Shown: piece after piece, positions 31,160-38,873 of the stretch | Layout: each line of letters starts with the position of its first letter | How positions within the stretch are numbered: the stretch's first letter is position 1 | Source: Geoalkalibacter sp. | Lineage (GTDB): Bacteria; Desulfobacterota; Desulfuromonadia; Desulfuromonadales; Geoalkalibacteraceae | Assembly (NCBI RefSeq): GCF_030605225.1 | Contig: NZ_JAUWAV010000022.1 | Location: 1-64,000 of the forward strand | Length of the DNA stretch: 64,000 nt | Direction: 5' to 3' | Translations under genes and position numbers: made by a program | The notes under the pieces: model-generated | The model's database searches: none | Told to the model about the DNA's origin: nothing | Seen by the model: the letters and a program-made list of their open reading frames with translations, nothing else

Positions 31160-32674
31160 ATGGCCCGCTACGTCGCCGCCCTTGATCAGGGAACCACCAG
31201 TACCCGCTGCATGATCTTCAACCACGGCGGCGAGGTGGTCGCTCATCATCAGCTTGAACACCGCCAGATCTATCCCCTGGCCGGCTGGGTCGAGCACGAT
31301 GGCCTGGAAATCTGGGATCGCGCGCGCGACGTGGTGCGCTGCGCCATGGAAAAAGCCGGCCTCATCGCCGCCGACATCGCCGCCGTCGGCATCACCAATC
31401 AGCGTGAAACCACCCTGATCTGGGATCGCAAAACCGGCCAGCCTTACGCCAACGCCATCGTCTGGCAGGATACGCGCACCGATCAGATCTGCCGACAACT
31501 TGCGGAAAACGGCGGCCAGGACCGCTTTCGCGGCAAGACCGGCCTGCCTTTGGCGACTTATTTTTCCGGCCCGAAAATCGCATGGCTTCTCGAACATGTG
31601 CCGGGCCTGCGTGCGGCGGCCGAGCGCGGCGACGCCCTGTTCGGCAACATGGACACCTGGATGATCTGGAAACTCACCGGCGGTCCCGGCCCGGGCGCTG
31701 CTCATGTCACCGATGTTTCCAACGCCTCGCGCACCCTGCTCATGAATCTGGAAACCCTTGATTGGGATGAGGACATTCTCGCGGCGTTGGACATTCCCCG
31801 GGCGTTGCTGCCCCAGATCCGTCCCTCCAGCGATCCGGACTTTTATGGGATGACCCGCGCGGATGGCCCCTTCGGCGGCGAAGTTCCCGTGTGTGGCGAC
31901 CTTGGCGACCAGCAGGCCGCCACCGTCGGGCAGGTGTGTTTCGAGGCGGGCGAGGCGAAGAATACCTACGGCACCGGTTGCTTCCTGCTGACCAACACCG
32001 GTCGGGACATCGTCCACTCCAAGCACGGGCTGATCACCACCCTGTGCTATCAGTTCGGCAAGCAGGCGCCGGTCTATGCCCTGGAAGGCTCCGTCGCCAT
32101 CGCCGGCGCCCTGGTGCAGTGGCTGCGTGATCGCATGCGTCTCATTAACACCGCCGCCGACATCGAAAACCTGGCGAAGATGGTCGAGGACAATGGCGGC
32201 ATGTACTTCGTGCCCGCGTTTTCCGGGTTGTTCGCGCCTTATTGGCGCAGCGAGGCCCGCGGCCTGGTCATCGGCATGACCCGCTTCATCACGCGCGGCC
32301 ATTTTGCCCGTGCCGCCCTGGAAGCCGTCGCCTACCAGACCCGCGAGGTGGTCGACGCCATGGCAGCTGATTCGGGCGTGAGTCTCAAGGCCCTCAAGGT
32401 CGACGGCGGCATGACCGCCAACGAATTGCTCATGCAGATTCAGGCCGATGTGCTCGGCGTGCCGGTGATCCGCGCCAAGGTCGCCGAAAGTACCGCTTTG
32501 GGCGCCGCCTACGCGGCGGGGCTGGCCGTGGGCTACTGGAAAGATCCGCAAGATCTCAGGAAAAACTGGGGAATCGATAAGACCTGGCAGCCTGCGCAAG
32601 ACGATACCTTGCGCACCCGAAACTACCGCATGTGGAAGAAGGCGGTGAGTCGTACCTTCGACTGGCTCGAGTGA
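31160..32674 (+). CDS. glpK: Glycerol kinase
   Basis: The 504-residue FGGY-family kinase starts with [16 protein letters not shown], the N-terminal phosphate-binding loop. It also has the substrate segment [12 protein letters not shown], the [10 protein letters not shown] region and the C-terminal [18 protein letters not shown] motif. AAGGAGG lies a few bases before the ATG. It phosphorylates glycerol to glycerol-3-phosphate, the substrate of the GlpD encoded 27 bases upstream. The gene ends at the AT-rich regulatory region of the alpha/beta hydrolase. Confidence 0.97.
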
Positions 32675-32704
32675 AATTTTTTTGGCGTTTACGCTAAAAA
32701 GGTG

Positions 32705-32720
32705 TTTGCATATTTGCAAA
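32705..32720 (+). promoter_or_regulatory. Dyad 1, possible enhancer-binding-protein site
   Basis: TTTGCA-TATT-TGCAAA, a perfect dyad, lies about 220 bases upstream of the predicted sigma-54 start site. It is preceded by AAAAAGG. Dyad 2 (32806-32821) repeats it 101 bases downstream. Confidence 0.6.
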
Positions 32721-32805
32721 ACCAGCTAGACTTCGCTGAAATCCTTGCTATCCTATTGAAAAATATAGAGAAAAAATCTTAACGAAATCATTGCCTAAAA
32801 GGCTT

Positions 32806-32821
32806 TTTGCATTTATGCAAA
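32806..32821 (+). promoter_or_regulatory. Dyad 2, possible enhancer-binding-protein site
   Basis: TTTGCA-TTTA-TGCAAA repeats dyad 1 exactly in both arms with a different 4-base spacer, and is preceded by AAAAGG as well. It lies about 120 bases upstream of the predicted start site, a typical distance for NtrC-type activator sites. Confidence 0.6.
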
Positions 32822-32907
32822 GCGGGCTTCTTTTTTACAATTCAGATGGATTTATTTAATTGTCTGAAATCTTTATGGAAATTACTTTTAAAACAATTTT
32901 TTAAAAG

Positions 32908-32924
32908 TTGGTACGAGGGTTGCT
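32908..32924 (+). promoter_or_regulatory. Predicted sigma-54 (RpoN) promoter
   Basis: TTGGTACGAGGGTTGCT matches the -24/-12 consensus TTGGCACG-N4-TTGCW, with GG at 32910-32911 and GC at 32922-32923, exactly 12 bases apart. The region upstream is AT-rich, as expected where DNA must bend to bring an activator to the promoter. It points at the alpha/beta hydrolase gene that starts at 33010. Confidence 0.75.
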
Positions 32925-33009
32925 CAAAGAGGAAGGAAAGGTTGCTCCCCTTGATTTCTCTGAGCGCAGTCCCTTGCCCGGGGGCCGCTTCCCACCCAGG
33001 AGGATGGCG

Positions 33010-33849
33010 ATGAAAACGAAGATCAACGGCGTACAGATCGGCTACGACGATTTCGGCAAAGGCCCCGCGGTGCTGTTCATCCACGGCTATCCCCTCAACC
33101 GCAAGATGTGGCGCCGCCAGGTCGAACCTCTGGTCAACGACGGTTTTCGCGTGGTGCTCACCGATCTGAGCGGCTTTGGCGAAAGCGAACTGCGCGCCAA
33201 TGCCGGCGATCTCAACGCCCATGCCGATGATCTGGTGGGGCTGCTCAATTATCTGGGGATTGGTCGCGCGGTGGTGTGCGGCATCTCCATGGGCGGCTAT
33301 GTTCTCTTCGACCTGCTCGAGCGTTATCCGCAACGGGTGGCCGGCGCCTGCTTCGTGGTCACGCGCCCTGTCGGCGACGACGTGCAGGAGCGGGTCAAGC
33401 GCGCCGAATTACGCGCCGCCCTGGAACGAGGCGAGATCGACGAGGTTCGTGAGGCCTTTATGCAGGTTCTGGTCGCGCCGAAAGGTAAAAAAGTTCGCTC
33501 GCCGGATATGCGCGAGGTCTGCGAATGGGTCCGGAGCACCGATCCGCGCGGCCTGGCCGCGGGGCTTGAAGCCATCGGCCGGCGCAAGGATTACACCCCC
33601 TTGCTCAAACGCCTCTCCCTGCCCACCCTGGTGGTCGGCGCCGAGGAAGATCGCGTCATCCACCCCCTGCATTCCGAACTACTCGCCCGTCACCTGCCCA
33701 ACTGTTTTCGCGCGGTGAGTCTCAAGGGCGGCCATCTGGTCAACCTGGAAAAATTCCAGGCCTTCAACAGTCACCTGCTGGATTTTCTCAGATCCCTGGT
33801 GCCGCAAGCGGAACCCGAGTGCGACGAACCCGCCGATGAACTCGGCTGA
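33010..33849 (+). CDS. Alpha/beta hydrolase
   Basis: The 279-residue protein begins with a beta strand (INGVQIGYDDFG) and the oxyanion-hole segment FIHGYPLNRKMW. The nucleophile elbow is GISMGG with Ser93, and there is an acid/His pair near the end (VVGAEEDRVIHP and GGHLVNLE). The layout fits the esterase/haloperoxidase-like branch. The start at 33010 sits 6 bases after AGGAGG, unlike the in-frame ATG at 33004. No signal peptide, so it is cytoplasmic. Transcription is predicted from a sigma-54 promoter with two upstream dyads, so expression probably depends on an unknown environmental signal. Confidence 0.88.
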   Translation: MKTKINGVQIGYDDFGKGPAVLFIHGYPLNRKMWRRQVEPLVNDGFRVVLTDLSGFGESELRANAGDLNAHADDLVGLLNYLGIGRAVVCGISMGGYVLFDLLERYPQRVAGACFVVTRPVGDDVQERVKRAELRAALERGEIDEVREAFMQVLVAPKGKKVRSPDMREVCEWVRSTDPRGLAAGLEAIGRRKDYTPLLKRLSLPTLVVGAEEDRVIHPLHSELLARHLPNCFRAVSLKGGHLVNLEKFQAFNSHLLDFLRSLVPQAEPECDEPADELG

Positions 33850-33962: not shown

Positions 33963-34343
33963 GTGAATCTGCTCAAATACTCTCTTCTGATCGGTTATTG
34001 CGCCGCCCTGGTGTGGCTCTCCCTCGCATCCTCCCTGCCGCAAACCGGACTCGACTGGCCACACAAGGACAAACTCGGGCATGCCCTGGCTTATGCCTTG
34101 ATGACCCTGCTAGCGGCCTGGGTCTGGAGCAGGGGGGCGAGCCTGACCCTGAAGGGACTGGTGCTGGGATTGCTCTTCGCCATGGTCTTCGGCGGCGTCA
34201 TGGAATTTCTGCAAGGGCTTGTCACCCCCGCGCGGCAGGCGGAATGGTGGGATTTGTTCGCCAATTTCAGCGGAGGGCTGATCGTGTTTTTCGGCGGTCT
34301 CCGGTGGCTGGTTCGGCGCGAGAAGCTCAACTCTCGCGCGTGA
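33963..34343 (+). CDS. VanZ-like membrane protein
   Basis: The 126-residue protein starts at GTG 33963 behind CCGGAGG. It has about four hydrophobic helices and the conserved VanZ features: the first helix, then PHKDKLGHALAYALMTLL and MEFLQGLVTPAR. Members are integral membrane proteins of uncertain function, some linked to teicoplanin resistance. The last 17 bases overlap the minus-strand bioA gene tail to tail. Confidence 0.8.
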   Translation: MNLLKYSLLIGYCAALVWLSLASSLPQTGLDWPHKDKLGHALAYALMTLLAAWVWSRGASLTLKGLVLGLLFAMVFGGVMEFLQGLVTPARQAEWWDLFANFSGGLIVFFGGLRWLVRREKLNSRA

Positions 34344-37668: not shown

Positions 37669-38235
37669 ATGGTGAAACAGCTGATCGGCAAAAAGCTCAA
37701 GGCCACGCGCCTGCGCAATGACATGACCATTCAGGAACTGGCAAAAAAATCGCGGGTTTCGTCCAACATGATTTCCCGTATCGAACGCGGCCTGACCATC
37801 CCTTCCGTGGAAATCCTCATGAAGCTGGCCGAGGCTTTCGGCATGAGCATCAGCTTTTTCGTGGAAGAAGCCGAACGCGGCACCCTGATCGTTCCCACCA
37901 TCCAGCGCAAAGGCGAACCGATCTTTTTTTTCGAGGACAAGCATCAGATCACCAGCCTCACCCATGGCATCCGTGACCCTGGTTTCAGCGTGTTTTGCGA
38001 CACCCTGGAAGAGGGTTGCAGCAGCGGGCAGGGCGGCATGGTGCATACCGGGGAAGAGTTCGCCTATGTTCTCAAGGGCAAGATGCAGTTTGTCATTGAC
38101 GGGCAGAATTACGTGCTGGAAGAGGGAGACTCCATCGTTTTCAAGGCGTCCCTGCCGCACCGCTGGGACAATCTGCATGCCGGACAGACGGAAATCCTCT
38201 GGGTGGTGTCTCCCGCGCCCAACGTCTCCCAGTAA
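37669..38235 (+). CDS. XRE-family regulator with C-terminal cupin domain (copy 1)
   Basis: The 188-residue protein has an N-terminal helix-turn-helix (about 5-62; LKATRLRNDMTIQELAKKS, then SSNMISRIERGLTIPSVEIL) and a C-terminal cupin_2 barrel (about 115-180) with HTGEEFAYVLKG and a PHRWDN final strand. The cupin should bind a small metabolite that alters DNA binding. GAGGAG precedes the start. It is followed by a closely similar paralog 71 bases downstream. Targets are unknown. Confidence 0.92.
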   Translation: MVKQLIGKKLKATRLRNDMTIQELAKKSRVSSNMISRIERGLTIPSVEILMKLAEAFGMSISFFVEEAERGTLIVPTIQRKGEPIFFFEDKHQITSLTHGIRDPGFSVFCDTLEEGCSSGQGGMVHTGEEFAYVLKGKMQFVIDGQNYVLEEGDSIVFKASLPHRWDNLHAGQTEILWVVSPAPNVSQ

Positions 38236-38306: not shown

Positions 38307-38873
38307 ATGCGCATTAAAAAAATCGTCGGCAAGAAACTCAAGGCCATTCGCCTCAAAAACGATATGACCATTCAGGAACTGGCGGAAAAATCGGGTGTTT
38401 CCTCCAACATGATCAGCCGCGTGGAACGCGGTCTGACCATTCCGTCGGTGGAGATCCTGATGAAGCTCGCCGGAGTGTTCGACAAGAGCATCAACTATTT
38501 CGTCGAAGAGGTCAGCACCACCCACGAAGTGGTGTTTACCCGACCGGGGCAGCGCGATACCACGGTTTACGACGATGAACACAACATGCACACCGAATCC
38601 TTCACCTCGGGCCTGCGTGATCCCCAATTCATGTCGTTTTTTTGTACCGTGCCGCCGGGGGGCACCAGCGGTCGCCAGCATATGTATCACCCCGGCGATG
38701 AACTCATCTTCATGATCGAAGGTCGCCTCAAGGTCACCATCGCCGGGGAGGAATATGTGCTGACCCCCGGCGACAGTCTCTCTTTCAAGTCGCATCTGCC
38801 TCATCGCTGGGATAATATCAGCGATCAGGATGCCAAGGTGCTCTGGACGCTTTCTCCCTTTACGATTATCTGA
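38307..38873 (+). CDS. XRE-family regulator with C-terminal cupin domain (copy 2)
   Basis: Same length and architecture as the gene at 37669: HTH (about 5-62) and cupin (about 115-180; HPGDELIFMIEG and SHLPHRWDN). The DNA-binding helices are nearly identical to copy 1, including VSSNMISR and ERGLTIPSVEILMKLA. The linker and cupin differ, for example at the pocket-lining region after residue 70. This suggests a tandem duplication in which the two proteins see the same or overlapping DNA sites but respond to different ligands. The ribosome-binding site GGAG is 11 bases from the ATG. Confidence 0.92.
   Translation: MRIKKIVGKKLKAIRLKNDMTIQELAEKSGVSSNMISRVERGLTIPSVEILMKLAGVFDKSINYFVEEVSTTHEVVFTRPGQRDTTVYDDEHNMHTESFTSGLRDPQFMSFFCTVPPGGTSGRQHMYHPGDELIFMIEGRLKVTIAGEEYVLTPGDSLSFKSHLPHRWDNISDQDAKVLWTLSPFTII

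Follow-up and report, generated by a model that had tools for sequence, protein, structure and literature searches.

A predicted sigma-54 promoter with two upstream dyads in Geoalkalibacter as a probable member of a class-wide carboxylate-uptake regulon

Introduction

Among described systems, the one closest to the control region analyzed here is AtoS-AtoC of Escherichia coli, in which a histidine kinase and an NtrC-family response regulator, responding to acetoacetate and short-chain fatty acids, act on the atoDAEB operon through a sigma-54 promoter with upstream palindromes. A verified AtoC site, as given in PMC3118216, contains TGCAGAAATTTGCA. Geobacter sulfurreducens, a related metal-reducing bacterium, likewise uses sigma-54 together with many enhancer-binding proteins, about half of which are described as parts of two-component systems (PMC2725144). 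The terms "acetate transport," "monocarboxyl," and "hydrolase" are absent from the main text of that report, and no operator or regulon of the kind described below was met in it. Sensing of small carboxylates is known from Cache domains of chemoreceptors: PscD-SD (5g4y) is described as binding glycolate, acetate, propionate, and pyruvate (PMC5062169), and the structure 4k08 (Adeh_3718) was reported with acetate, which according to its authors possibly came from the crystallization mix (PMC3831638).

Here we analyze a stretch of 64,000 nucleotides from Geoalkalibacter sp. (the window; contig NZ_JAUWAV010000022.1 of assembly GCF_030605225.1), in which two palindromic dyads and a predicted sigma-54 promoter precede an alpha/beta hydrolase gene. 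The original prediction left both the activator of this promoter and its signal unnamed; a candidate pair of response regulator and dCache kinase, encoded elsewhere in the genome, can now be named for these roles. We consider it highly likely that the promoter, with two sites for an NtrC/AtoC-family regulator, is part of a carboxylate-uptake regulon that extends across the class and responds to a dCache kinase. The class in question we take to be the Desulfuromonadia (GTDB name).

Results

The hydrolase gene (33010–33849, + strand; ATG at 33010, 279 amino acids), which we think is controlled by the upstream elements, has as its 5' neighbor an FGGY-family kinase gene (31160–32674, + strand) named by eye as glycerol kinase (glpK). 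The predicted -24/-12 promoter, TTGGTACGAGGGTTGCT (32908–32924, + strand), would place the start of transcription near 32934; its GG (32910–32911) and GC (32922–32923) are separated by 10 bases, the exact spacing that had been claimed for it. The one departure from the -24/-12 consensus, a T for C after the GG, is common to 58 of the 71 boxes found with dyads (see below). The motif TTTGCA-N4-TGCAAA occurs twice upstream, 101 bp apart, as a distal dyad, TTTGCA-TATT-TGCAAA (TTTGCATATTTGCAAA; 32705–32720), 187 bp 5' of the box, and a proximal dyad, TTTGCA-TTTA-TGCAAA (TTTGCATTTATGCAAA; 32806–32821), 86 bp 5' of the box, and we propose both as activator (enhancer) sites. With +1 taken at about 32934, their centers fall at about -121 and -222, which agrees with the approximately 120 and 220 bases predicted, and the region is indeed AT rich (71% AT over 32675–32907). 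The description of the dyads as identical holds for the arms, but the 4-base spacers differ (TATT versus TTTA). Similarly, the runs noted before the dyads, AAAAAGG and AAAAGG, are present, but no such element is conserved in the flanks of 144 dyads, which rules the runs out as a part of the operator. Directly 3' of the glpK stop codon and 5' of the dyads, a terminator-like, A/T-flanked hairpin is predicted (32676–32703); the possibility that the dyads themselves are terminator hairpins was considered, yet this hairpin leaves them unexplained.

The 3.7-Mb assembly contains no exact dyad other than the two located 5' of the hydrolase gene. When the 233-bp intergenic region was shuffled with preservation of dinucleotides, at least one exact dyad appeared in 4 of 20,000 shuffles and two appeared in none. 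Two 6-4-6 inverted repeats of unspecified sequence are less remarkable, since they arose in 239 of 5,000 shuffles, and the evidential weight therefore lies in the exact motif and its conservation. Nor are dyads enriched in the window when two mismatches are allowed (4 found versus 2.6 expected), which again leaves the argument to the exact occurrences and their conservation. Weak GG-N10-GC matches are numerous in the window.

Eight other hydrolase promoters, three of them from the same genus, retain the box and the proximal dyad core. In an alignment of nine promoters (the window; G001, G002, and G003 of the same genus; G005 of the same family; L004 of Malonomonas; and G012, G058, and G079), nearly all invariant upstream columns belong to the proximal dyad core and to TTGGTA...TTGCT; the proximal dyad of G079 carries three mismatches. 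Both dyads and the box were already visible in a first alignment of orthologues from other genera. The aligned stretch of G058 stopped short of the distal site, and the whole locus (L126) contains the proximal dyad only. The contig of G116 begins 57 bp 5' of the gene, and this genome was left out of the comparison. Locus L003, also from a Geoalkalibacter sp., encodes a 96% orthologue of the window hydrolase. G004 has a dyad and TTGGTATG before its hydrolase gene but no recognizable -12 element, and no exact dyad was found at the distant homologues L006, L007, and L008 (40–45% identity). Among the loci examined, glpK adjoins the hydrolase gene in the four genomes of this genus and in no other. 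Elsewhere the hydrolase promoter is conserved without an adjacent glpK, and control linked to glpK was ruled out for that reason.

In searches of whole genomes, the exact dyad was found in 42 of 58 related genomes, with the reversed control pattern found 0 or 1 time per genome. A composite search for a dyad, a gap of 72–102 bp, and a box, which served as an independent test of the dyad-box association, matched 113 of 277 genomes of the class, and its reversed pattern matched none. Loci L001–L173 contain 90 distinct boxes, of which 71 are preceded by a dyad at a distance of 60–290 bp, a share that is biased because these loci were mostly picked for holding a dyad, whereas placement and phasing are unbiased. 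Near the 90 boxes, 144 dyads (≤1 mismatch) lie upstream versus none within 700 bp downstream, and 60 of the 71 sites have at least two dyads at this threshold. The distances between proximal dyad and box (n = 62) are concentrated at 95–99 bp (34 sites), 84–88 bp (14 sites), and 73–82 bp (6 sites), so that the main positions, about 86 and 97 bp, are approximately one helical turn apart; distances of 130–167 bp are empty. The phasing has a period of about 10.7 bp (R 0.65), which was matched by 0 of 2,000 jittered sets. At least two sites roughly 100–250 bp 5' of the start, on a preferred face of the helix, as found here, are the layout of an NtrC-type enhancer. Absence of the dyads or the -24/-12 box from relatives had been named as a result that would refute the reading proposed from the window alone; both are conserved in relatives, at helically phased spacing, which supports a sigma-54 promoter with an NtrC-type enhancer.

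The genes that follow the sites point to carboxylate uptake. Of 113 distinct sites, including those fetched with the composite pattern, blastp comparison with seed proteins assigned the next gene to a SatP/YaaH-type transporter at 38, an MFS monocarboxylate transporter at 36, and a hydrolase at 15; 17 sites had no open reading frame of at least 120 amino acids, and 7 had another next gene. The family names rest on scans of few members: Gpr1_Fun34_YaaH matches were obtained for L041, L108, L048, L055, and L049, and MFS matches for L040, L045, and L076. L040 and L045 scored above the cut-off of the "L-lactate MFS transporter" model, and L041 above that of the "acetate uptake transporter" model, with L051 just below the latter (49.3 of 50 bits, NCBIfam); the L051 SatP-type protein had no Pfam match. 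In G030 and G016, a single site is followed first by a SatP-type gene and next by a hydrolase gene. A MauG/di-heme peroxidase-like gene lies directly 5' of the MFS target in two genomes of this genus (L040:6785–8158 and L045:5006–6487).

In this genome (G000), four targets are predicted: the hydrolase gene, an MFS gene (C7:9381), a SatP-type gene (C4:41838) whose dyads carry two mismatches, and a SatP-type gene next to a regulator gene on C5, with weak dyads (two mismatches) on the flanks of the regulator gene and a variant box that departs from the consensus. Dyads with one mismatch elsewhere in the genome include those on C6, C18, and C23; that on C6 has no box nearby. Two strong TTGGTAY-N5-TTGCT boxes without dyads (G000:C21:49424–49440 and G000:C4:63071–63087) were left out of the regulon count. 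The C21 box adjoins another NtrC-type regulator gene, and other activators may therefore use the same -24 variant.

Many regulon transporters carry an N-terminal Cys-rich domain, with the consensus CPF.GKNED.CDVGCGYISPHDV.MII.YCS.R...C.KY.EL and four invariant cysteines in an alignment of 39 rows (among them L214:3832–4020, L100:1056–1241, and L051:9774–9959). In other orders of the class, the domain is free-standing, at about 63 amino acids. Many of the sites without an open reading frame of at least 120 amino acids, mostly in those orders, are followed by the approximately 63-residue Cys-rich protein and then by membrane-protein genes of about 83 and 349 codons (L214:4140–5591; also L207, L209, L211, L213, L219, and L221). 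The 349-residue protein of L214 had no Pfam match above the cut-off. The Cys-rich domain had no match among PDB profiles or in Foldseek, its free-standing form had no Pfam match at an E value of 0.05, and its structure model reached medium confidence only.

As originally stated, no enhancer-binding protein gene is evident beside the hydrolase gene: the list of open reading frames shows none there, and no place on contig 22 is among the listed matches to the regulator query. Beside many sites in the class lie genes for two proteins, a histidine kinase with a dCache sensor and a response regulator of the NtrC family. The adjacency to dyads, the co-occurrence across genomes, and the conserved recognition helix all indicate one such pair, and the activator of the hydrolase promoter is very probably the NtrC/AtoC-type response regulator encoded at G000:C5:70699–72072, paired with a dCache kinase. 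This is the single clear orthologue in the genome of the regulator from L051 used as the query (69% identity); the next matches to that query, among those listed, reach 43–47% identity. The regulator has a receiver domain, a sigma-54-interacting AAA+ domain with a GAFTGA motif, and a Fis-type helix-turn-helix, as expected of the NtrC family, and the genome encodes RpoN (sigma-54) on G000:C42 (E 2.4e-64).

We examined 26 loci (L148–L173, out of 42 regulator matches) that were fetched by the regulator protein alone, without regard to dyads. A kinase gene is adjacent in all 26, and a dyad (≤1 mismatch) lies within 400 bp 3' of the regulator gene in 20; the remaining 6 have none such nearby. Regulator and sites also occur together across genomes, both among 58 genomes scored for dyads (regulator and dyads, 39; regulator only, 3; dyad only, 3; neither, 13; Fisher 8e-8) and among 277 scored for composite sites (both, 102; regulator only, 91; site only, 11; neither, 73; 1.6e-10), with values that overstate independence because the genomes are related by shared ancestry. 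Two of the three regulator-only genomes in the smaller set (G010 and G046) do carry composite sites. In the larger set, no regulator was detected in 11 of the 113 genomes that have a composite site, and no composite match was found in 91 of the 193 that have a regulator; incomplete genomes and the strict pattern may account for some of these cases. Within one genus, G042 has neither regulator nor dyads, and G034 and G052 have both. The 20-residue recognition-helix region has a mean identity of 86% in 49 orthologous sequences, some from one and the same genome, versus 28% in 14 paralogues, and its AGMNMATIYRK segment, at least 90% conserved at each position in the orthologous set, differs in the paralogues.

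Among solved structures, the sensor of the kinase matched 2qhk, 4exo, 4k08, and 5g4y, with E values of 5.9e-8 to 4k08 (Adeh_3718) and 9.9e-5 to 5g4y (PscD-SD). The acetate contacts listed for 4k08 are Tyr94, Trp96, His107, Tyr147, Trp149, and Lys160 (PMC3831638). An alignment read by eye pairs them with Tyr131, Phe133, His144, Tyr184, Trp186, and Lys199 of the kinase's first Cache domain; five of the six are thus identical, and these five are invariant in 25 of 25 kinase sequences. The sensor resembles the Cache domains of C2/C3-carboxylate chemoreceptors in sequence and in the contact residues of 4k08, but its double Cache domain is set in a histidine kinase. Given this resemblance, the ligand-contact residues, and the transporter targets, the likeliest signal is a C2-C3 monocarboxylate such as acetate or propionate.

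The window hydrolase belongs to the Abhydrolase_1 family and has an intact Ser93-Asp214-His242 triad. Its nearest solved relative by sequence is 4uhc, annotated "ESTERASE" (E 2e-40 over 257 residues), which we take to be TtEst of Thermogutta terrifontis. TtEst is described as active on C1-3 esters (PMC4655241). Against the TIGR02427 model of the 3-oxoadipate enol-lactonase PcaD, the hydrolase scored below the cut-off (108.8 of 255.85 bits). Given the SatP/YaaH, MFS, and hydrolase genes among the co-targets, the window hydrolase probably contributes to monocarboxylate acquisition, either as a short-chain esterase or in a form derived from such an enzyme.

Although the window protein resembles 4uhc, several relatives under the same promoter type lack the nucleophile. 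The catalytic serine is missing in 7 of 23 homologues with a dyad-box site ≤1.6 kb upstream (a group that includes near-duplicates from one genus) versus 0 of 23 without a site (a group that includes L025 with a dyad and no box, L123 with 57 bp of upstream DNA only, and the distant or partial L008, L009, and L010), and because the two groups differ in subfamily, part of the contrast may stem from lineage instead of regulation. The serine-less proteins are those of L037, L085, L090, L095, L124, L194, and L195. L037 (137 amino acids) and L095 (145 amino acids) are short open frames, each closed by a stop codon within its locus, and L194 and L195 are similar forms of 197–198 amino acids. Two more regulon hydrolases, L096 and L226, show other damage to the triad.

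Discussion

The mechanism should resemble NtrC or AtoC control. In the model that we propose, the periplasmic dCache domain of the histidine kinase would sense a short-chain carboxylate, most likely of C2-C3 size (acetate, propionate), and the kinase would phosphorylate the NtrC/AtoC-family regulator. The regulator would then bind the TTTGCA-N4-TGCAAA dyads located about 75–97 bp and 180–270 bp 5' of the box and, by looping to RNA polymerase–sigma-54, open the promoter. Genes predicted to be under its control encode acetate transporters of the SatP/YaaH type, monocarboxylate transporters of the MFS, and alpha/beta hydrolases. The hydrolase promoter would be one of at least four targets of the regulator in this genome. 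Both the binding of this activator and the dependence on sigma-54 are predictions from sequence. Some findings weigh against the model: the weak dyads and variant box beside the regulator gene of this genome, the genomes with only a regulator or only a composite site, the 6 regulator loci without a nearby dyad, and the departures in G004 and G079.

Other readings of the dyads must be considered. We regard it as distinctly unlikely that they are bound by another of the genome's enhancer-binding proteins and that the dCache system stands near some sites by coincidence. Candidates for such a binder are plentiful, with at least 94 matches to the regulator query in the genome when partial ones are counted, and in 11 of the 277 genomes composite sites occur although no regulator was detected. 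Against this, dyads lie directly 3' of the regulator gene in 20 of the 26 loci chosen without regard to them, regulator and dyads are present or absent together within one genus (G042 versus G034 and G052), and the recognition helix is conserved among orthologues of this regulator.

Alternatively, the dyads may be sites for a repressor, or for a protein of the nucleoid type, with a modulating effect on the sigma-54 promoter. Many regulators typically recognize palindromes of this size, which would suit such a role, but strict upstream placement with no dyad in the 700 bp 3' of the boxes, helical phasing, and the presence of a sigma-54 activator gene beside many sites make it very improbable. 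We give almost no credence to the view that chance or DNA structure accounts for the arrangement, with the dyads being glpK terminator hairpins or palindromes of AT-rich DNA and the box a GG-N10-GC look-alike. The AT-rich spacer, the terminator-like hairpin directly 5' of the distal dyad, and the many weak GG-N10-GC matches in the window would fit it; however, dyads and box are conserved outside the glpK context, the reversed pattern is absent from all 277 genomes, and the exact motif is confined to this intergenic region in the assembly. The NtrC/AtoC-family regulator paired with the dCache kinase thus remains the activator that we favor.

This candidate system resembles AtoS-AtoC without being identical to it. 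Of the NCBIfam models, AtoC gives the L051 regulator its highest score, but identity with AtoS-AtoC was rejected because the L051 orthologues fall below the cut-offs (AtoC, 452.3 of 714 bits; AtoS, 269.2 of 646 bits). The half-sites of the verified AtoC site that contains TGCAGAAATTTGCA are similar to those of the dyads, whereas the spacing between half-sites is different. Unlike in AtoSC, the sensor here is a dCache domain, and transporter and alpha/beta hydrolase genes make up the targets identified. An acetoacetate coenzyme A-transferase operon was found at none of the 89 sites (of 113) whose next gene was classified, the other 24 being unclassified. A literature search, with most subscription journals outside its reach, returned no description of the operator or regulon, and we regard this sigma-54 regulon, with its candidate activator and signal, as new. 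It is probably a switch common to a class of metal- and sulfur-respiring bacteria, by which genes for acetate-type uptake and esterase-like proteins would be turned on. With an operator, a class of promoters, a list of targets, and a candidate pair of sensor and activator, responsive genes can be predicted across iron- and sulfur-reducing bacteria. Carboxylate uptake is also linked in this way to two protein families that are poorly understood.

A further and more doubtful idea, which we put forward tentatively, is that this class-wide carboxylate-sensing regulon couples uptake to the four-cysteine domain, fused to acetate and monocarboxylate transporters or, in other orders, free-standing, and to alpha/beta hydrolases whose catalytic serine was lost repeatedly and that would act not as enzymes but as proteins that bind carboxylates or regulate the transporters.

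Additional genes near the hydrolase merit mention. A weakly VanZ-like gene (window 33963–34343; E 8.6e-4, below the Pfam cut-off) follows it, and homologues with 30–42% identity are present in regulon loci outside the genus, in G004, G016, G030, G037, and G056 (loci L025, L049, L060, L075, and L096). Farther downstream, at 37669–38235 and 38307–38873, the window contains two tandem genes for 188-residue regulators, each with a helix-turn-helix and a cupin domain.
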